Shown in pieces: positions 43,267-53,289 of a stretch of DNA of 53,289 bases (positions within the stretch are counted from its first letter, which is position 1; each line of letters opens with the position of its first letter). The DNA comes from a virus. The stretch spans positions 1 through 53,289 of IMG/VR virus record IMGVR_UViG_3300020473_000040; one strand, written 5' to 3'. A program made the translations under genes and the position numbers. Under the pieces are notes generated by a model, which worked only from the letters and a program-made list of their open reading frames with translations, ran no database searches and had not been told where the DNA came from.

Positions 43267-46200
43267 ATGGCTGAGCAGACCTTCAGATCGCCAGGATTTT
43301 TTGAAAGAGAAATTGACCTATCTGGCAGAGTTCAGGAAGTTGCCGGAACTCCTGCCGGAATTGTTGGAACTTCAGAGTTCGGTCCAGCGTTTATTCCCGT
43401 CACCGTGGGATCTTTTGCAGACTTTAAGTCTAGATTTGGTGATTTAGATTCAACAAAGTTTGGACCATATGCAGTTAATGAGTTTCTTAAGAACAGAACT
43501 GCTGTAACATTTATGAGAGTCTTGGGAGCAGGTGCAAATTCTAATAGTACGGATATTCAAAATACTATTAACTTGGGCACTGTAAAGAATGCAGGATTTA
43601 GAATAAAAGGAGCTGAGGTCGGAAACGGCCACAAGGCTCACAAAGGCTCAGTTCAATTTTTAGGTGCAAAGCACACGTTGCAAACTAACGAGGCATTTGG
43701 CTATCCTGTATTTACAGACAATGACAGCTTTAATGTTTCACAAGGGGGAGATGTCTTTCTCATCCGTGGGATGATATTTACATCAACAGCCAGCCTCGTT
43801 CAAGTTCTCCCATACTGGGCCTCATACCCATCTTCAGGATCCAGAGTTGAGGATGTTGCTGCTGTTGGGATGAACATAAATGACTCTGTAAATTATAAAA
43901 AGTTTAAGATAGTAGTTTCAAGTTCTGTTGGGTCAACATTTTCCAATGACGAAGGGCAAGCTGGGATTAGAATATATACAGCCTCACTAGATCCTTCAAA
44001 TGAAAGCTATATTTCAAAAATTCTTAACACAAATCCCGAAAGATTTCAGGAAGAGCAGCACCTTTTGTACGGTGATTTTGCTGTTGAAGATGAGATTGCT
44101 ACAGTTACAAACTATGTTGGAGTTCTTTCAGGATCTGCTTCAACTTCCAAAGGGTCTGGTGACACATCTCAGACCTATAGGGATATGTACGGAAGATTCG
44201 ATACAAGATATGCTGCTGCAAAGACAACCTTCTTCAGGTCGCAGATGTATGGAAATTCAAAGTACGACTTGTTTTATTTTGAAACTCTAGATGACGGCGC
44301 TAATACTTGCGACAAATATAAGATTTCAATCTCCAATCTTAGAAAATCAACTGATCCAAAGAATGAGTATGGATCGTTTACCGTTCTCGTTAGATCGTTT
44401 AATGACTCTGACACTGCACAGGAGATACTAGAGCAGTATCCTCTTTGCACACTTGATCCAAATGATGAGAACTTTGTCGCTAGAAAGATCGGAGATCTAA
44501 GTGTTAAGTATAACTTTGACACACTAAGCGAAGATGAAAGAAGATTCGTAATATCAGGAAAGTATCCAAATGTATCTAGCAGGGTAAGGATAGTCCTAAG
44601 TGACGATTTACAGAATGGAAATGTTCCAAAAAGTGCTCTTCCCTTTGGATTTGCCGGGCTTCCCGCTCTAAAGACCAACAACCTTCTTTCAGATACAACT
44701 TCTTATGCAGCCCTTAAGGGGGTCTTTAAGGATATTCTCAATGGTGGTACAGATAGTGTTAGATTGGCTTTCAATTCAGGGTCTAATCTCGACGGGAGAT
44801 ACCACAACGAGGCTCAAGCTCTAACTGGATCAATTGTCCCACCCATGCCCATGACGTTTAAAGTCACCCAGGGAACTATGGGAACATCTGGCTATGCAGG
44901 AAAGCCTGGGACAAACGAGAGAGTCAATCCAAAGTATTATTGGGGAATTAAAACAACGAGAGTTCCCCTCACAGGAACCCTCTCTAATGCCGCCTTAAAT
45001 CCAAATGCATCTTCTGATACAAATCCACTAGTCAGGACGTATACAAAGTTTCTTGGAATTGAAAAAATGGATGCTCTTGTAACGGGCTCTGGAGCTGATG
45101 CTTTCTGTAATAACGAATTTTCGCTTAACAAGGTCGCTCTAAGTGTAACTCTCTCAGGAGAGGGAACTCAAGATCGGACGCTGATTAAATCTGTTGACCA
45201 GAATCTGACTGGAACAGCTGCTGAACACATGTTAGAGACTGCCTACATTAGAGACGGGCGTATCGCAGCCGGAAATTACTATACTATCGGGCAGGCTGGA
45301 ACGACTGATCTAAGGGTCTCACTAGGGTCTCTGTTGACCCTAACATCGTCTATTTTCTTTAACAGATTTACAGATTACGCAAAGTTTACCAACATTATGT
45401 ACGGTGGGTTTGATGGAAATAATATTCTTGATATTGATATGTCAAGAATGAATGACAGGGCTAGCTCCTCTGACCCAGGTGGAAAGGCAGGTATTACTGC
45501 TCCAGCAGCTGGCGGAGATCTTGACATTGGGCTCAATGCTATCTCAACTGTCGGGGCTGGAAAGTTTAATAATACAGTTGCTTCATATAGGTCAGCCATT
45601 GATATTATGACTGACCCAATGACTACAAGAATTAACATACTGGCCATTCCTGGAATTAGAGATAGTTTCATTACCGATCATGCTGCTGACAAAACACGAG
45701 AATACAGTCAGGCAATCTATCTAATGGATGTTCCAAGCTATAATGATTCTAGTTTAAGAATTTTTGACAATGATGGATTAAGACCAAATGTTGCAAAGAC
45801 TAGGGATAAATTTGATGGACGATCTCTTGACAACAACTATGCCGCAGCTTATTTCCCAGATGTGAATATCACTGACGATAGAAATGGAAATCCCGTAAGA
45901 GTTCCGGCGTCAATAGCGGCACTGAGCGCACTAGGATTTAATGACTCTGTTGCCTATCCCTGGTTCGCACCTGCAGGATTTAACAGGGCTGCTCTTTCAA
46001 ATGTCTCTAACGTGGCCACACGGCTTAACACAGCCGATAGAGATGACCTCTACGACTCTAGAATAAATCCAATAGCATCTTTTCCACAGGCAGGGTTTGT
46101 TATATTTGGACAGAAGACATTACAACAGGCTAAGTCTGCCCTTGATCGGGTCAATGTTAGAAGAATGCTTCTTGAAGTCAAGCGACTTATTTCTGACGTT

Positions 46201-46458
46201 GCTAAGAAGCTTGTCTTTGAGCAGAACACGCCTTCAACTAGGGCTAAGTTCATATCACAAGTGACACCACTGCTTGCGACAGTTCAAAGTCAGCAGGGAA
46301 TTGATAAGTTTAGTGTTGTAATGGACGAGAGCAATAACACAGCTGAAGATATTGAGTCCAACAGGCTCAACGGAAGGATTGTTCTAGTTCCAACTAGGGC
46401 AGTGGAGTACATTGCTATTGACTTCATTATCACTAATTCAGGTGTAAGTTTTGAGTAA
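43267..46458 (+). CDS. Tail sheath protein, first copy (gp18-like)
   Basis: 1063 residues, ATG 43267 after GAGGAGA. N-terminus RSPGFFEREIDLSGRVQEVAGTPAGIVGTSEFGPAFIPVTVGS is the classical sheath opening; the C-terminus VNVRRMLLEVKRLISDVAKKLVFEQNTPSTRAKF...VVLVPTRAVEYIAIDFIITNSG is the sheath core domain that inserts handshake strands. Middle block GMASMR-like INILAIPGIRDSFITDHA and PWFAPAGFNRAAL are also typical. It is ~400 residues longer than T4 gp18 (659), with extra surface domains in the N-terminal half. It has a full-length paralogue downstream. Confidence 0.93.
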   Translation: MAEQTFRSPGFFEREIDLSGRVQEVAGTPAGIVGTSEFGPAFIPVTVGSFADFKSRFGDLDSTKFGPYAVNEFLKNRTAVTFMRVLGAGANSNSTDIQNTINLGTVKNAGFRIKGAEVGNGHKAHKGSVQFLGAKHTLQTNEAFGYPVFTDNDSFNVSQGGDVFLIRGMIFTSTASLVQVLPYWASYPSSGSRVEDVAAVGMNINDSVNYKKFKIVVSSSVGSTFSNDEGQAGIRIYTASLDPSNESYISKILNTNPERFQEEQHLLYGDFAVEDEIATVTNYVGVLSGSASTSKGSGDTSQTYRDMYGRFDTRYAAAKTTFFRSQMYGNSKYDLFYFETLDDGANTCDKYKISISNLRKSTDPKNEYGSFTVLVRSFNDSDTAQEILEQYPLCTLDPNDENFVARKIGDLSVKYNFDTLSEDERRFVISGKYPNVSSRVRIVLSDDLQNGNVPKSALPFGFAGLPALKTNNLLSDTTSYAALKGVFKDILNGGTDSVRLAFNSGSNLDGRYHNEAQALTGSIVPPMPMTFKVTQGTMGTSGYAGKPGTNERVNPKYYWGIKTTRVPLTGTLSNAALNPNASSDTNPLVRTYTKFLGIEKMDALVTGSGADAFCNNEFSLNKVALSVTLSGEGTQDRTLIKSVDQNLTGTAAEHMLETAYIRDGRIAAGNYYTIGQAGTTDLRVSLGSLLTLTSSIFFNRFTDYAKFTNIMYGGFDGNNILDIDMSRMNDRASSSDPGGKAGITAPAAGGDLDIGLNAISTVGAGKFNNTVASYRSAIDIMTDPMTTRINILAIPGIRDSFITDHAADKTREYSQAIYLMDVPSYNDSSLRIFDNDGLRPNVAKTRDKFDGRSLDNNYAAAYFPDVNITDDRNGNPVRVPASIAALSALGFNDSVAYPWFAPAGFNRAALSNVSNVATRLNTADRDDLYDSRINPIASFPQAGFVIFGQKTLQQAKSALDRVNVRRMLLEVKRLISDVAKKLVFEQNTPSTRAKFISQVTPLLATVQSQQGIDKFSVVMDESNNTAEDIESNRLNGRIVLVPTRAVEYIAIDFIITNSGVSFE

Positions 46459-46496
46459 TCTATATTTAATGATTAGAGTTTTTGGAGAGGACAAGA

Positions 46497-49400
46497 ATGG
46501 CTGAGCTGACATTCAAAAGTGCCGGAGTTAGCACAAGAGAAATTGATCTTTCATCGCCAAGCACAACGGGCCCCATAGGGGTTCCAGCTGGCGTCATTGG
46601 AACTGCTGTCCAGGGTCCAGCGTTTGTCCCTGTAACAGTTGCCAACTTTTCAGAGTTTGTGTCAAGATTTGGACCCACAGACGGGGAAAAATTTGGACCC
46701 CTTGCTGTCAATGAGTGGTTAAAAAATGCCCAATCTCTTACTTACGTTAGGGTGCTCGGAGCGGGTGATGGAAAGAAGAGAAATACATCAACAGGAAAGG
46801 TAACCAATGCTGGGTTTGTAGTCGGTGATAAAACACCTCAGCCAAACGGTTTGATCGGTGTAAATCCATATGCAAACTCTCACGGTGACAGGGGAAATGT
46901 TCACTTTCTTGGTTGCTACATGTCAGAGTCACTTGGCAGCACCTACCTTAGCGATGCTGGAGTTCAGGGAACTACCTTAACAACTGCTACTGCGACAATA
47001 CAGGCGGTATCAGCAACCGTTTCACAATATGACGGAGGTACGCTAACTATAGTTGATGCCTATGCTACACAGAAAATATATATCTTTGACGACGATAGTG
47101 ACGGTGCCACTGGATCTACTGATGGATCAGGCAATGTTAGAATACAAATTAACGGTAAAACAACAGCTGGAGAAGTAGCAGCTCAAATCAAAGCTGCGAT
47201 TGAATCCGCAAATGGACACAATGGGACAATCACAATAGCAGTGTCAACAGCAGATGCAGCAAACGATACACTTACCTTAACCCAGCCAAGGGGCGGTACT
47301 GAAGGCAATAAAACGATTACCCGCGCAACGATAACAGCTGATAATATTTATACAATCTCAGGCTTTTCCGGCGGTGTTAATAACAATAGGGCCATGCCAA
47401 TTCTTCGAGGAGTTCTCTTCTCAGCGTCAGGAGTTATGCCACTCCTTTCAGGAAATTACCAGGTGACAGCACCTGGAACCGGTCCAGCTAATACAGCTAT
47501 TGGTAGATTAGGAGATTCTTCTCTAAGGGGAGGCCTTACCGGCTCGATGGTTCTCAGTAGCCATGACTTTGTAATGTTTCTTAATGGTCACAAGGGCCTG
47601 GCAAAGAATAAAAGGGTCCTCTCGGCATCACTGGATGTCAATTCACCCTCCTACATATCGAGAGTCTTTAACACAGACCCAACAAGGATTGAGGAGCATG
47701 GCCACTATCTCTATGCACACTATCCCATCCACTCTTCTCAAGCAGTTCCGACAGGTTCCGGAATTCTTGTACCTGGATCAACAGAGTGTGTTGAGCACCA
47801 CGGACAGGGTGCAGACTATAACGACTGTATATTCATCACTACTGGATCACTTAGTGCAGTTGGACAGGCGGGTGGAAGCACTACAGTTCCTGATTACAGG
47901 ACTTGGGAGGATAGGTTCTCAAATGCCAAGTCCCCATATCTTATATCGCAGAATTTTGGTGGAAAGCCCTATGACCTATTTAGAGTCGAGTCGCTATCTG
48001 ACGGAGCTGGAACCAGCACAAAGTTCAAGATCTCAATTGAAAATCTAGCTAAGTCAAACTCTGACATAAATAAGTTTGGAAAGTTTGACCTCGTCATCAG
48101 GGACTTCTACGATACAGACGATGAGAAAGTTGTTCTTGAATCCTTTAGAGGCCTAAGCGTTGACAAGGAGTCTGATAGATATTTTGCTAGAGTTATCGGA
48201 GATCAAAAAGCTTACTTTGACTTTGATCAATCTTCAGATTCTCAAAAACTCGTTGTCGAAGGAGACTTTCCAAATCAATCAAGACACATTCGTGTTAAGG
48301 TCTCGAATAAGCTTAGGGCACAGGAAGTTCCAGACGAAGCTTTGCCAATGGGATATAGAGGACCCAGCCACCTAGTCACATCTGGTTCAGATCTACTTGC
48401 AACCATTGGGCACGGATCAGGAAGTAACTTTATTGGAAATGCTTCGGGATCTATGAAGCTGACTGTTGAGCCCCCAATTCCAATGAGAAAGAATGTTTAC
48501 TTTGGAACTGGAAACAAGAAAAGAGTCTCAGCCAATCTTTACTGGGGATCTCAATTTTCAAGAAAGACAGATGTAAATGAGCCTAACAAGCCTGACCTCT
48601 TTAACGAATCATTTGAGTCATATGCGAAATACTTTCCCAGCTTCGCCCTTGATGATCAAAAGTTCTCTATTGGAGGAAATCCAGGTGTTGCAGATACAGT
48701 TGCTAATGGAATTTTAGACTCTGACAGATTTAATAATAATAAATTTACACTAGAAAACATTCGAGTAACAACTGGTTCTGACACTTATGCAAACCCAAGA
48801 GAATGGGTCAGCGCATCTTACATCAGGGGTGGAGGTATCGGAGTAGACAGAGACAACAAGACCAGAGCGTTCAGTGCGGATGACCTTAGCGTTGTTGGAA
48901 ATAGAACATATGCTAAGTTCACGTTATTCCTCCAAGGAGGGTTTGATGGAACAAACATCTTTAATAGGGATAAGGCTAATCTAACTGACAATGCTGCCAA
49001 GAGGGAGATGGATGATCCAACAAACCAGGGAGGAAAGGAAGGTCCAACTGTAGCGTCATTCAGAAAGGCAATTGACATTGTAGCAAATAGATCAGATGTA
49101 GAGATCAAATTGTTAGCAATACCCGGAATGAGAGATGAGGCTATTACAGACTATGCATCTGATGCGGTTGAGAATAGATTTGACTCACTCTATATCATGG
49201 ATATTGAGGAGCGTGATTCACTAAATAATGTAGTCACATCTTCTGCTCAGAACATTAGTGTTAGTGACACTGTTACACAGTTTAAAAATAGAGCCCTTGA
49301 TACATCGTTTACTGCAGCATACTTCCCAGATGTCATAATTCAGGATCCTGTTAAGCTTACAAACGTCCGATGTCCGCCCTCTGTTGCAGTCTTAGGTGCA

Positions 49401-49925
49401 TTTGGTTTAAATGATGCACTTGGTCATCCCTGGTTCGCACCTGCAGGATTTACAAGAGGGGCCCTTGGATCAGTTATCCAGGCTTCGGTCGATCTAAATA
49501 GAGCTAATCTTGATAGCATATATGATGCAGACATTAATCCAATAACAGACTTCCCAGGAACGGGAGTTGTAGTCTGGGGACAGAAGACGCTTCTAGCAGC
49601 TGCTTCGGCACTTGACAGAGTCAATGTTAGAAGGCTTCTAATTGAAATTAGAAGAAAGGTGCGGGCAATTGCTGACACATTGCTCTTTGAACCCAATAGA
49701 GAGTCAACACTAGAGAAGTTCTCTAGCCTGGTTAATCCAATCTTGCAGAAAATTCAAGAGCAGAGTGGTCTTGATCGTTATAAGGTCATAATTGACACCA
49801 CTACTACGACACAAGCTGATATAGAAAATAACACAATTCGAGGAAAGATATTTGTTCAGCCCACAAGAACAGCAGAGTTCATTGCACTTGACTTTGTTGT
49901 TACTAATGCTGGTGCAGAAGTCTAG
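46497..49925 (+). CDS. Tail sheath protein, second copy with an inserted domain
   Basis: 1142 residues from ATG 46497 with GGAGAGG; the TTG frame opening at 46482 is not needed. It shares the first-copy layout: REIDLSSPSTTGPIGVPAGVIGTAVQGPAFVPVTV at the start, KLLAIPGMRDEAITDYAS, HPWFAPAGFTRGAL and a C-terminus RVNVRRLLIEIRRKVRAIADTLLFEPN...FIALDFVVTNAG. Residues ~163-296 hold an additional beta domain (YDGGTLTIVDAY...GNKTITRATITADNIYTISGFSGG) that the first copy lacks and that also occurs in the LamG protein at 16083. Both copies keep the core, so both could polymerise, perhaps as mixed rings. Confidence 0.92.
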   Translation: MAELTFKSAGVSTREIDLSSPSTTGPIGVPAGVIGTAVQGPAFVPVTVANFSEFVSRFGPTDGEKFGPLAVNEWLKNAQSLTYVRVLGAGDGKKRNTSTGKVTNAGFVVGDKTPQPNGLIGVNPYANSHGDRGNVHFLGCYMSESLGSTYLSDAGVQGTTLTTATATIQAVSATVSQYDGGTLTIVDAYATQKIYIFDDDSDGATGSTDGSGNVRIQINGKTTAGEVAAQIKAAIESANGHNGTITIAVSTADAANDTLTLTQPRGGTEGNKTITRATITADNIYTISGFSGGVNNNRAMPILRGVLFSASGVMPLLSGNYQVTAPGTGPANTAIGRLGDSSLRGGLTGSMVLSSHDFVMFLNGHKGLAKNKRVLSASLDVNSPSYISRVFNTDPTRIEEHGHYLYAHYPIHSSQAVPTGSGILVPGSTECVEHHGQGADYNDCIFITTGSLSAVGQAGGSTTVPDYRTWEDRFSNAKSPYLISQNFGGKPYDLFRVESLSDGAGTSTKFKISIENLAKSNSDINKFGKFDLVIRDFYDTDDEKVVLESFRGLSVDKESDRYFARVIGDQKAYFDFDQSSDSQKLVVEGDFPNQSRHIRVKVSNKLRAQEVPDEALPMGYRGPSHLVTSGSDLLATIGHGSGSNFIGNASGSMKLTVEPPIPMRKNVYFGTGNKKRVSANLYWGSQFSRKTDVNEPNKPDLFNESFESYAKYFPSFALDDQKFSIGGNPGVADTVANGILDSDRFNNNKFTLENIRVTTGSDTYANPREWVSASYIRGGGIGVDRDNKTRAFSADDLSVVGNRTYAKFTLFLQGGFDGTNIFNRDKANLTDNAAKREMDDPTNQGGKEGPTVASFRKAIDIVANRSDVEIKLLAIPGMRDEAITDYASDAVENRFDSLYIMDIEERDSLNNVVTSSAQNISVSDTVTQFKNRALDTSFTAAYFPDVIIQDPVKLTNVRCPPSVAVLGAFGLNDALGHPWFAPAGFTRGALGSVIQASVDLNRANLDSIYDADINPITDFPGTGVVVWGQKTLLAAASALDRVNVRRLLIEIRRKVRAIADTLLFEPNRESTLEKFSSLVNPILQKIQEQSGLDRYKVIIDTTTTTQADIENNTIRGKIFVQPTRTAEFIALDFVVTNAGAEV

Positions 49926-49980: not shown

Positions 49981-50472
49981 ATGGCAGAAACACTTTCAGT
50001 TAACGACTTACTTCCTAATAAGTTTGAACCCAAGAGAAAATTTAGGTGGGTTTTTGCTATAGAGGGAATTGACGCTTTTTTAATCAAGACAGCCTCAAGA
50101 CCGGGCTTTACTTTTTCTGAAACAGAAGTCAAGTTTATTAATTCAATGAGATATCTTGCTGGTCGAATGAAATTTGATACAATTTCAGTGTCTATGCATG
50201 ATCCAATTGCGCCTTCTGGAGCACAGCAGGTAATGGAGTGGGTTAGAACTCACTACGAATCAGTCTCAGGAAGAGCTGGATACGCTGACTTCTATAAGCG
50301 CGATTGTCAGCTTAAGCTTCTGGATCCTGTTGGAACTGTTGTTGAGCTCTGGGACCTCAAGGGTTGCTTTTTAACAACTGCCAAATATGGTGATCTTTCA
50401 TATGATGACGATAGTGCAATTATGGCAGTTGATTTAACGATTCGGTTTGACAACTGCGTTCTCCAATACTGA
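49981..50472 (+). CDS. Tail tube protein (gp19-like)
   Basis: 163 residues, exactly T4 gp19 size, ATG 49981 after CAGGAG. Features: KFRWVFAIEGIDAFLIKTASRPGFTFSETEV (the tube N-terminal strand block), a central ISVSMHDPIAP and a C-terminal GCFLTTAKYGDLSYDDDSAIMAVDLTIRFDNCVLQ, all typical of the T4-type hexameric tube. It forms the inner tube surrounded by sheath. It stands in the usual sheath-tube-chaperone-tape-measure order and has a hairpin terminator 25 bases downstream. Confidence 0.93.
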   Translation: MAETLSVNDLLPNKFEPKRKFRWVFAIEGIDAFLIKTASRPGFTFSETEVKFINSMRYLAGRMKFDTISVSMHDPIAPSGAQQVMEWVRTHYESVSGRAGYADFYKRDCQLKLLDPVGTVVELWDLKGCFLTTAKYGDLSYDDDSAIMAVDLTIRFDNCVLQY

Positions 50473-50574: not shown

Positions 50575-51429
50575 GTGTCAAAAAATAGATCTGATAGGAA
50601 TAGAATTTTTTCCGAAAGTCAGGAGCAGCAAGGAATACAGAGAAGAAATATTCTTGAAGATGACTTTGGCTGGGAGGTTCCCGTTGAATCAGTCCCAATT
50701 CCCTCACAGGGAAAGCTCTACCCCCCTTCAAGCCCCATGTTTGGAAAAGAAAGGGTTAATATAAAGGCAATGACTGCCAGAGAGGAGGATATTTTAACTT
50801 CTCGGGCTCTGATGGTGAATGGAACTGTAATAGAAAAACTTATCGAGTCCTGTGTTTTAGATCACGATGTAAATGTTAATGAGATGCTTACAGGTGATAG
50901 GTCTGCTCTAATGGTCGCCGTAAGAATTACAGGATACGGTCCCAACTATACAATAAAGTCAAATTGTCCTAAGTGCATTAGAACAGATAGCTATACGTTT
51001 AACTTGGCTGATCTCCCTATCAAGAGGCTAAAGCTTGATCCCGTATCCCCTGGAGAAAATAGATTTGAATTTAAACTTCCAGTTAGCAAAAAAATTGTTC
51101 ATTTTAAGTTTTTAACGGGAAAAGATAACGACCTAATTGAAGCCGAGTCGAAGAAAATGGCTGAACTCTTTCCCGAAGATGTAGTGGGAAGTGCTGTTAC
51201 AAGGAGGCTCAAGTTCAGCATACTTTCAATTGACGGAATTACCGATAGAAATAAGCTTTCAAGATTTATTGAGAATATGCCAGCCATGGATTCAAAGACT
51301 CTGAGAACCTACATTAAAAAAAATGAGCCGGGAATTGAAATGGTTGGAAGAATGACATGTAATTTCTGCTCAAAGGTATCGGAGGTGAGCCTTCCATTGG
51401 GCGCAAGCTTTTTTTGGCCTGAGCTCTGA
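50575..51429 (+). CDS. gp26-like baseplate/tail-assembly protein (0-frame product)
   Basis: 284 residues from GTG 50575 with an ideal AGGAGG. Features: VESVPIPSQGKLYP, MTAREEDILTSRAL, a helical VIEKLIESCVLD and two Cys pairs, SNCPKCIRTDSY (CxxC) and MTCNFCSKVSE (CxxC), that make a small zinc-binding unit, followed by SLPLGASFFWPEL. This resembles the T4 gp26 baseplate-hub/'T4 baseplate protein' family. Its location between tube and tape measure is where most tailed phages place the tail-assembly chaperone. A T7 run at 51409-51415 near its end leads into an overlapping +1 frame (next entry). Confidence 0.75.
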   Translation: MSKNRSDRNRIFSESQEQQGIQRRNILEDDFGWEVPVESVPIPSQGKLYPPSSPMFGKERVNIKAMTAREEDILTSRALMVNGTVIEKLIESCVLDHDVNVNEMLTGDRSALMVAVRITGYGPNYTIKSNCPKCIRTDSYTFNLADLPIKRLKLDPVSPGENRFEFKLPVSKKIVHFKFLTGKDNDLIEAESKKMAELFPEDVVGSAVTRRLKFSILSIDGITDRNKLSRFIENMPAMDSKTLRTYIKKNEPGIEMVGRMTCNFCSKVSEVSLPLGASFFWPEL

Positions 51430-51652
51430 ATATAAAAATCTTGTCTTAGAAGAGATTTATGCCCTAATTAAGCATTTAGGAATAGGATATACTGAATGTC
51501 GAGAGATGCCTGTTCGATATCGTCGCTGGTTTATTGATAAGCTAGTAGAGGATGCCAAAAAGCGAAAGGAGGCACGAGAAGGAGACATGATTACAGAAGA
51601 CACCGGCCCTACAGTCAATCTTATGGGATCAGGTCCTAGAAACTTTCAGTAA
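51416..51652 (+). CDS. Downstream segment of a putative +1 frameshift product (gpGT-like chaperone extension)
   Basis: This frame is open from 51389 to TAA 51650-51652 but has no ATG/GTG/TTG before 51506; starting there would discard a well-formed helical stretch, EYKNLVLEEIYALIKHLGIGYTE. A +1 slip of the Phe-TTT codon at 51412-51414 on the seven-T run would join residue 280 of the gp26-like protein to these 78 residues (GLSSEYKN...RYRRWFIDKLVEDAKKRKEARE...), total ~358. The segment RYRRWFIDKL with a charged helix is the kind seen in small genes after gp26 in T4-like phages. Alternatives: a separate 48-residue protein from ATG 51506, or an extra T in the assembly. Confidence 0.55.
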   Translation, partial: GLSSEYKNLVLEEIYALIKHLGIGYTECREMPVRYRRWFIDKLVEDAKKRKEAREGDMITEDTGPTVNLMGSGPRNFQ

Positions 51653-51686: not shown

Positions 51687-53289
51687 ATGGCAAGAGATAT
51701 ACAACGAGAAATTCAGGATACCCGCGATCTCATTGAAGCTAAAGAGGAAGAGCGTCGAGGTTTAGAGAGAACATCGGCACAATATCAAACTCTCACCCAC
51801 GATATCGATGAACTCACTCGACGTCTTGGAGAGCTGACAGCTGCCTCTCAAGGAGCTGCCGGAGGTCTATCAGCGGTTGCCGGTGCTGGACGCGGAGCCA
51901 TCGGCGAAGTTATGAACTCCCTCAGCCAGGGACTTGCAGATGCCAAGGAGGGGGTGGATGAATACTATAAGGCTCTTTCTGAGCTCTTTGAAGACAAGAG
52001 AAAGCTGTACGTTGGACTTCTTGATCACCTGGGAACAGATTATGCAACTGCAATGGAGGACTTTAGTCAAGGCTCTCAGAATCTGGGTGAACAAGTCGGT
52101 GGAACCATTCATGAAATGTACGACAGGTTCTACACTACTGATCTTCCGCTCTACTATTCTGGGTTAGAAGAGTTCGTATCATACGCTGAGGCGATTTACT
52201 ACTCCGTCTCATCAGGCTATTCAGCAATGAGACAGCTGGGTGATGACGCAGCACGCCAGATTGAGTCTGCATCCCTAATGGCGAAAGGATTAGGCTACTC
52301 AGCAGAAGAGATGATGGACGTCATGGACGCCCACTACAGCAAGACGGGAGAATTTAGCAATAGAATTCTTAGAGAGATTACCACCTACGCCACCGCTGTT
52401 TCAGACGTAACTGGTGACTCTGTCAAGGTTATTTCTAAGGGCATGGCTGATATTACAACTGACTTCGAGACTTTTGCAAATGTGGGTGTAGAGCAGTCAG
52501 CTGCAATTGTTGCAGGCTTACGTGAGGTCGGACTTAAAGTTCAGGATCTTGCTGACATCACATCTAAATTCTTAAATTTTGATCAAGCAGCTGAGTCACT
52601 TGCAAATCTGAACACAGTCTTCGGAATGCAAATTGATACATTTGCAATGATGGAAGCAGCATCGAGAGATCCCATGGAAGCTCTCGACATGCTGAGGGAG
52701 GGATTCTTTGCCACAGGTCAGGACTTTGAACTGCTTACTCAGCAGGAGAAAACCCTCCTAGCAGCACAGGCTAACGTCTCTACTGAGGTTGCTGCTATCA
52801 TGTTTGATCCCGATCGCATGAGGTCTTCTGCGGAAGCTCTTCAGGCCTCTGTTGCACAAGCGCAGGAAGAGGGAACAATGACGACTGAGGAGGCAATCTC
52901 CTCTCTTGAAGGCTCGATTACTCGAGTCACTGACCTTGAAGGTGATTTTACTGATGCTGTTTTTAATCGAATGGCTATGAGGTCACTTAGCGGTCTTGCA
53001 GACCAGTCCATTCTCGCTCATGATGCAATGACACGACTCGCACGAGCTCCCCCCCAAGTGGCGGATTCAATGAGAGGAATTCTCGGTGAAGATATAATCT
53101 CTGGTGAGGGTGGTCTCGAGGGAACCTTGGAGGCAGCGGGAACTCTGGCGACTGAAGGTCTCCAGGGTCTGGCAACTGCCACTCAAGATCTGGCTGGGGA
53201 TATAGGTCTTAGTGTTCCCGAGAACGTTTTAGTCGGTCTTAGAGATCCAGCCTCCCAGCAGATACTAAACGATGGAGGTCGTCAGATAG
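51687..53289 (+). CDS. Tail tape-measure protein, 3'-truncated by the window
   Basis: ATG 51687 with a CAGGAG site about 12 bases upstream; the frame stays open to the last base, giving 534+ residues. The start is a coiled coil (RDIQREIQDTRDLIEAKEEERRGLERTSAQYQTL), then Ala/Gly-rich SQGAAGGLSAVAGAGRGAIGEVMNSL, then long helices with MAKGLGYSAEEMMDVMDAHY and ADITTDFETFANVGVEQSAAIVAGLREVGLKVQDLADIT, a pattern shared with phage tape-measure proteins (minor tail proteins of the internal tube). The position after tube and chaperone-like genes supports it. It would set tail length and be ejected with DNA. No lytic-enzyme motif is seen in the visible part. Confidence 0.8.
   Translation, partial: MARDIQREIQDTRDLIEAKEEERRGLERTSAQYQTLTHDIDELTRRLGELTAASQGAAGGLSAVAGAGRGAIGEVMNSLSQGLADAKEGVDEYYKALSELFEDKRKLYVGLLDHLGTDYATAMEDFSQGSQNLGEQVGGTIHEMYDRFYTTDLPLYYSGLEEFVSYAEAIYYSVSSGYSAMRQLGDDAARQIESASLMAKGLGYSAEEMMDVMDAHYSKTGEFSNRILREITTYATAVSDVTGDSVKVISKGMADITTDFETFANVGVEQSAAIVAGLREVGLKVQDLADITSKFLNFDQAAESLANLNTVFGMQIDTFAMMEAASRDPMEALDMLREGFFATGQDFELLTQQEKTLLAAQANVSTEVAAIMFDPDRMRSSAEALQASVAQAQEEGTMTTEEAISSLEGSITRVTDLEGDFTDAVFNRMAMRSLSGLADQSILAHDAMTRLARAPPQVADSMRGILGEDIISGEGGLEGTLEAAGTLATEGLQGLATATQDLAGDIGLSVPENVLVGLRDPASQQILNDGGRQI

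Follow-up and report, generated by a model that had tools for sequence, protein, structure and literature searches.

Evidence for a probable programmed +1 frameshift in the gp26-like tail chaperone gene of mostly uncultured T4-type phages

A programmed +1 ribosomal slip near the end of a gp26-like gene very probably yields two products in a clade of viruses, a short protein, G, and an extended fusion, GT, in which G is joined to a second domain, T; we put the probability of this reading at about 0.9. In bacteria and their phages, programmed +1 shifting at a sense codon is uncommon, and tail chaperone frameshifts are usually −1.

The tail gene cluster and the proposed shift

The window, that is, the whole stretch of 53,289 nucleotides that was analysed, is a 53 kb viral contig from IMG/VR, the right end of which carries a tail cluster consisting of a tube gene, a gp26-like gene, a second reading frame and a tape-measure-like ORF. 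The features are:

49981–50472, + strand: tail tube protein, T4 gp19-like (phrog_4542, E = 6.3e-29; PF06841, E = 3.2e-5, below its cut-off)
50575–51429, + strand: G, putative gp26-like tail assembly chaperone, 284 amino acids, frame 0 (PF12322, phrog_150)
51409–51417, + strand: candidate shift site TTT TTT TGG (sequence)
51416–51652, + strand: T domain, 78 amino acids, +1 frame (GLSSEYKNLVLEEIY...), without a start codon of its own
51427–51429, + strand: TGA, frame-0 stop of G, four codons past the slipping TTT-TGG boundary
50575–51652, + strand: predicted GT fusion, 358 amino acids, with 280 residues from G and 78 from T (read from the sequence)
51687–53289, + strand: probable tape measure protein, 5' part, continuing past the window end (phrog_167, position)

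Upstream of the tube gene lie two very large tandem tail-sheath-like genes (43267–46458 and 46482–49925; 1063 and up to 1147 amino acids) with similar opening motifs, which were called by position and mutual similarity.

Frame 0 of the gp26-like gene is open from 50551, and G starts at a GTG and contains two Cys pairs. The protein matched PF12322 with E = 1.4e-15 (58.1 bits against a curated cut-off of 24.5) and phrog_150, 'baseplate hub', with E = 1.3e-17. The match of the tape-measure-like ORF to phrog_167, 'tail length tape measure protein', was weak (E = 0.013). Near its end the gp26-like gene reads GCA AGC TTT TTT TGG CCT GAG CTC TGA in frame 0, with a seven-T run at 51409–51415, and the +1 frame continues after TTT TTT as GGC CTG AGC TCT GAA TAT (GLSSEY...). 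This +1 frame is open over 51389–51652 (87 codons, 78 of them from GGC at 51416 to the stop at 51650–51652), and ATG, GTG and TTG are absent from the 7 codons before the slip site and from the first 25 after it.

The following mechanism is proposed. G would be the short tail assembly chaperone, and in a minority of ribosomes peptidyl-tRNA-Phe would sit on the second UUU (51412–51414) with a slowly decoded YGG codon in the A site (TGG, 51415–51417, in the window). The tRNA-Phe would then slip one base forward and re-pair with UU(U/C), at 51413–51415 in the window, and reading would go on in the +1 frame to give GT. If the system works as in lambda, the tape measure protein would be coated by G and tube subunits would be recruited by T, the tube protein being the partner expected for the T domain, and the efficiency of the shift would set the G:GT ratio. 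We infer the shift, its efficiency, the translation of the fusion and these binding roles from the sequence, and the tryptic junction peptide predicted for the window's +1 fusion is VSEVSLPLGASFFGLSSEYK.

Conservation of the site and the frame under selection

Relatives were collected by a scan with the second frame, which gave 113 relatives, 80 of them taken further, and by a scan with frame 0, which gave 20. The second frame lay +1 to the gp26-like ORF in 99 of the 100 loci fetched, so that the overlap first noticed, of a 78-residue frame lacking a usable start codon with the 3' end of the gp26-like gene, is no accident; the remaining locus (L089) ends at a contig edge, yet reads TTC TTT TGG. 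Four forms were found among the 81 distinct junctions (window included), namely TTTTTTTGG (47), TTTTTTCGG (30), TTTCTTTGG (3) and TTCTTTTGG (1). All 81 have the second frame in +1, [C/U]UU_Y at the site and TGG or CGG as the A-site codon; the site variants are TTT_T, TTT_C and CTT_T, and the fourth base is never a purine. The seven-T run had been predicted to permit a +1 slip into the second frame, and the site rule holds throughout the 81. As background, 359 of 22,115 in-frame codons (1.6%) in the upstream part of these genes are [C/T]TT with Y as the next base, although the rows are related to each other and 81/81 against 1.6% is hence not a probability. The patterns of the second-frame scan included the junction peptide FFGLSSEY (in any codons), whereas those of the frame-0 scan did not, and in the latter 16 of 16 distinct loci agreed with the +1 site.

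T homologues in the +1 frame after G were also present in the huge phage LR756508, Bacillus phage SP-15, Listeria phage LIS04, Streptococcus phage GXN1 and Streptomyces phage BRock, the site being TTC TTT CGT in GXN1 and CTG TTT CGC in BRock. Listeria LIS04 (L105, 3180–3211) reads TTT TTT AGT, unlike all 81 junctions of the window's clade; it fits +1 only if the first UUU slips, which is a point against the common model.

A −2 ribosomal slip, such as has been reported for phage Mu, would reach the identical frame, and the T7 run of the window permits −2 re-pairing; the peptide it predicts there, ASFFFGLSSEYK, has one Phe more than the +1 peptide ASFFGLSSEYK. However, TTT CTT TGG (3/81) and TTC TTT TGG (1/81) bar cognate −2 re-pairing and permit +1, as do the BRock and GXN1 sites. 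The rarer +1 mode that had been proposed for the window therefore survives, every variant of its clade fitting +1 and not −2, and we regard −2 slippage as very unlikely.

Transcriptional slippage on the T run would give mRNAs of mixed length, and the seven T of the window would suit it. Alignment of the relatives showed that the overlap is kept, but a seven-T run is absent from 34 of the 81 junctions (six T then C in 30, an interrupted run in 4), and runs as short as six T, or interrupted ones, are not known to slip enough for this process, which is thus extremely improbable. The same variants answer the objection that a homopolymer sequencing or assembly error has split a single gene. Homopolymers are error-prone, but the shift is kept where the run is six T plus C or interrupted, and the 81 junctions, which come from IMG/VR assemblies, agree with two MAG contigs and with the isolates Microcystis phage Mel-JY01 and Flavobacterium phage immuto, which have the same +1 arrangement. 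An error of this kind has a negligible chance of being the explanation.

Constraint was measured as nucleotide entropy at codon positions 1/2/3 over the 81 junction rows. Frame 0 upstream of the slip site gave 1.26/0.67/1.74, and frame +1 after the slip gave 0.77/0.54/1.17 in the overlap and 1.16/0.89/1.61 beyond it. Pairwise codon differences in the overlap (the pairs are not independent) were nearly all nonsynonymous in frame 0 (7247, with 16 synonymous) and mostly synonymous in frame +1 (5343, with 2262 nonsynonymous). Within the overlap, frame +1 has G-L in 81/81 rows, with GLSSEY conserved directly past the slip site; in frame 0 the first codon is W in 51 rows and R in 30, and the third and fourth vary freely. 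Frame 0 is constrained upstream of the site and frame +1 after it, indicating that translation changes frame at the T run.

This result bears on the alternative that T is a separate gene, with its own start or translated by termination-reinitiation (stop-start coupling), and that there is no fusion. An ATG does occur upstream in the second frame in 12 of the 81 junctions, and some others have one within 25 codons downstream. Against this, ATG is missing upstream in 69 junctions and in both places in 28, the window's +1 frame is startless over the same stretches for ATG, GTG and TTG alike, and GLSSEY is conserved in frame +1 from the slip site on. The objection that relatives might carry an ordinary start thus fails in the window's clade, where the +1 constraint begins right after the slip site.

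The signals that might promote a pause differ between the subclades. CGG makes up 0.9% of Arg codons in the TTT_CGG group (0.35 per 1000; 37,532 codons), and this rare codon occupies the A site in 30/30 of its junctions, where it is probably slow because of its rarity. All 30 TTT_CGG junctions have an SD-like 4-mer in the 12 nt before the site, as against 10/51 TGG junctions. The window belongs to the TGG group; it has no SD-like 4-mer in the 12 nt upstream of the site, and TGG is not rare in its group (8.1 per 1000). The window thus shows neither of the two aids to pausing present in the TTT_CGG group, which counts against the +1 reading. A search for stimulatory RNA structure, in 70 nt downstream and upstream in a random subset of 44 of the 81 distinct junctions, revealed no hairpin signal (group mean z from −0.52 to 0.28; 1/88 windows below −2).

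Probable chaperone function and the homology of T

The pair had been predicted to lie between the tube and tape measure genes, and this order recurs: a tube homologue is upstream in 72 of 76 testable relatives, and 69 of 72 have an ORF of at least 200 codons that begins no more than 500 nt from the T stop, the TMP N-terminus being alike in sequence in only 13/72. Deposited annotation splits or misses the predicted G-T fusions in the records examined.

The AlphaFold model of G (pLDDT 90.9) was compared with 483 chains by VIA-align. The top chain was 3klu (YqbN; Z 5.6, rmsd 3.8 over 85) and the second 2ob9 (HK97 gp13; Z 4.8, rmsd 3.9 over 93), with the next at 3.3; all lie below Z 8 and may reflect merely a common arrangement. 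Both YqbN and HK97 gp13 are named as tail assembly chaperones in PMC9603447. Foldseek gave E = 7.8 for the G model against 2ob9 and, from a viral library, only gp26-like 'baseplate hub' relatives. The T model is three-helix (pLDDT 80); it had no Foldseek match in the PDB at E ≤ 0.001, and its best VIA-align match was an unrelated protein (Z 3.1). When solved structures were searched by sequence, G and T4 gp51 matched none, and the profile of +1 T domains (A1) matched five different sequences, of which two are designed proteins and none is credible.

Three lines speak for placing the window pair in the G/GT chaperone system: the gene order tube–G/T–TMP, the two chaperones that top the structural comparison (weak Z) and the profile links to T4 gp51 given below. 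The original prediction that gp26-type proteins belong with this system stands on these grounds, but not as a novelty. The roles of gp26 and gp51 as T4-like tail assembly chaperones (Vladimirov, Gautam and Davidson 2022, Virology 566:9) and −1 poly-T sites in T4-like phages, for which PMC12846349 cites that paper, were already known. PMC3004832 places T4 gp26 and gp51 among the hub assembly chaperones and says of gp51 that it is essential, is not part of the particle and has no known function.

Cyanophage P-SSM2 has an annotated 57-residue gp51 in the −1 frame after a gp26 that ends AGT TTT TTC GTA TAA. A scan with this gp51, the patterns of which included FFRISMAH, gave at least 80 loci besides P-SSM2 itself, and among the matches listed TTTTTTC (U_UUU_UUC) was in register for a −1 shift in 80/80 distinct cyanophage junctions. 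T_TTT_TTC with T in the −1 frame was likewise found in PA5oct and Atu_ph07; PBECO4 has T_TTT_TTC plus TAATG, and Desulfovibrio 7757 has T_TTT_TTC and no start codon within 30 codons. In Vibrio D531 (L204) and Aeromonas phiA8-29 (L207) a domain resembling T occupies the −1 frame, and the heptamer TTTTTTC is absent (A CTT TTC); the first 17 codons of this frame in phiA8-29 contain no ATG, D531 has TAATG, and the T profile A4 gave no match in either.

These cousins bear on a separately started T from both sides. An ATG stands five codons past the heptamer start in 77 of the 80 cyanophage junctions listed (absent in 3), and the TAATG of D531 occurs without the heptamer. However, the T frames of Desulfovibrio 7757 and PA5oct are startless over 30 codons, yet keep T_TTT_TTC, and T4 gp51 is T fused to a PF12322 domain. 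Together with the junctions of the window's clade, these data make an independent start for T very unlikely there, and a programmed +1 slip is the preferred reading.

In T4, gp26 and gp51 each cover the PF12322 profile almost from end to end, and gp51 extends about 48 residues further. The sole match of the cyanophage T profile in the T4 genome was the gp51 C-terminus (E = 2.5e-5), and the profile also matched the gp51 extension in Aeromonas 31, RB43 and Acinetobacter 3014. The +1 T profile matched the small gp51 of P-SSM2 (E = 1.1e-5) and phi-Grn1 (4.9e-6); it missed T4 gp51 (best T4 match elsewhere, E = 0.064), did not find T in PA5oct, Desulfovibrio 7757 or S-N03, and gave a weak match elsewhere in Atu_ph07. 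Profiles were then compared by hhalign, with 60 column shuffles per comparison as controls. Cyanophage T scored 60.5 against the T4 gp51 C-terminus (shuffle maximum 16.9) and 39.4 against +1 T (17.5), and jumbo-phage T scored 37.5 against +1 T (19.1). The score of +1 T against T4 gp51 was weak at 21.9 (maximum 16.3; 0/60 as high), and that of jumbo T against cyanophage T, 17.1, was within the shuffles (maximum 18.2; 1/60 as high). The +1-frame domain, the small gp51 of cyanophages and the C-terminus of T4 gp51 (the latter two phrog_634) thus form one family at the profile level. The window's T alone had no PHROG match at E ≤ 0.01, and in Pfam T gave only weak matches, to DUF6760, a family of unknown function, for L023 (3001–3186; E = 7.7e-4, below cut-off) and L031 (0.012). 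Other sub-cut-off Pfam matches of T were taken as chance.

Evolution, known systems and significance

Two PF12322 copies were found in 8/8 T4-type genomes, all picked for having gp51, and one copy in 14 of 16 other genomes. The remaining two of the 16, Mel-JY01 and immuto, had none above the Pfam threshold, and their G was found by tblastn. In a tree of 51 G domains, a hand-picked set with long end branches and a root that is not known, the 25 +1 rows formed one group (95/81) and the gp51 rows another (100/98), and the −1 rows need three changes. LR756511 was left out because the end of its G is different and its T can be assigned only tentatively; in this huge phage (L112) a long tail rich in Arg and Thr closes the gp26 homologue, and a T-like stretch lies in another frame. 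The tree suggests a single origin of the +1 mode, and its simplest reading would be that the −1 shift is ancestral and that the change to +1 and the duplication each took place once. We lean towards the view that one orthologous chaperone gene has its short and long forms made in three ways: by −1 at U_UUU_UUC in cyanophages and several jumbo and other phages, by +1 at the same Phe-Phe run in the window's clade, and by duplication with fusion in the T4 group.

Lambda gpG/gpGT, with the −1 G-T frameshift family (Xu 2004, as described in PMC5009743), shares with the window's clade a short chaperone and a frameshift-extended form, a shift near the 3' end of G and a place between the tube and tape measure genes. 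It differs in shifting −1 at X_XXY_YYZ, whereas the window's clade would shift +1 at [C/U]UU_Y, and in its G protein, that of the clade being PF12322 with Cys pairs. T4 gp26/gp51 has the same G family and, via the cyanophage intermediates, the same T domain, but T4 makes its two chaperones from two genes and the window's clade would make them from one locus by slippage; a statement in PMC5009743 (2016) has G-T shifting conserved 'except T4'. SPP1 gp17.5/17.5*, with a putative −1 shift at UUUUUUC (PMC6316719), is also a tail chaperone pair and uses the heptamer of the cyanophage group. However, this phage is of another lineage and its putative chaperone shift is −1, the +1 case described for it being the tube protein at CCC_UAA.

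Among +1 systems, PMC5009743 calls bacteria 'especially prone' to +1 at UUU_Ynn and gives the RF2 shift as having CUU_U in the P site, with UUU_U in a minority. RF2 shares the [C/U]UU_U P-site slip with the window (UUU_U), and its internal SD may have a counterpart in the SD-like element of the TTT_CGG subclade, but its A site is a UGA stop and that of the window's clade the sense codon YGG. For influenza PA-X (UCC_UUU_CGU), +1 at UUU_C was shown by mass spectrometry (PMC3498833). As proposed for the TTT_CGG subclade, tRNA-Phe slips there on UUU_C ahead of a CGN codon, although the ribosome is eukaryotic and the protein unrelated to G/T. The haloarchaeal myovirus HSTV-2 makes a G-T product 'very likely' via +1 frameshifting (PMC5009743), a direction that it would share with the window's clade.

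The novelty lies in the +1 mode, in how well it is conserved and in its apparent single origin in the tree; a literature survey, which left the full text of Vladimirov 2022 outside, found no +1 case for PF12322 chaperones. According to PMC3037559, cyanophage gp51 is without the first ~200 residues of T4 gp51, and on the slippage reading the missing part would be gp26, joined by slippage. The TTT_T, TTT_C and CTT_T variants, together with the rare-codon and SD-like subclade, form a natural mutagenesis series for +1 frameshifting, and where an Arg codon that is almost never used stands in the A site of the +1 version, the availability of tRNA or the state of the host may adjust how much of each form is made. 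A large set of T4-type phages, for the most part uncultured, thus appears to use +1, the direction opposite to that of lambda.
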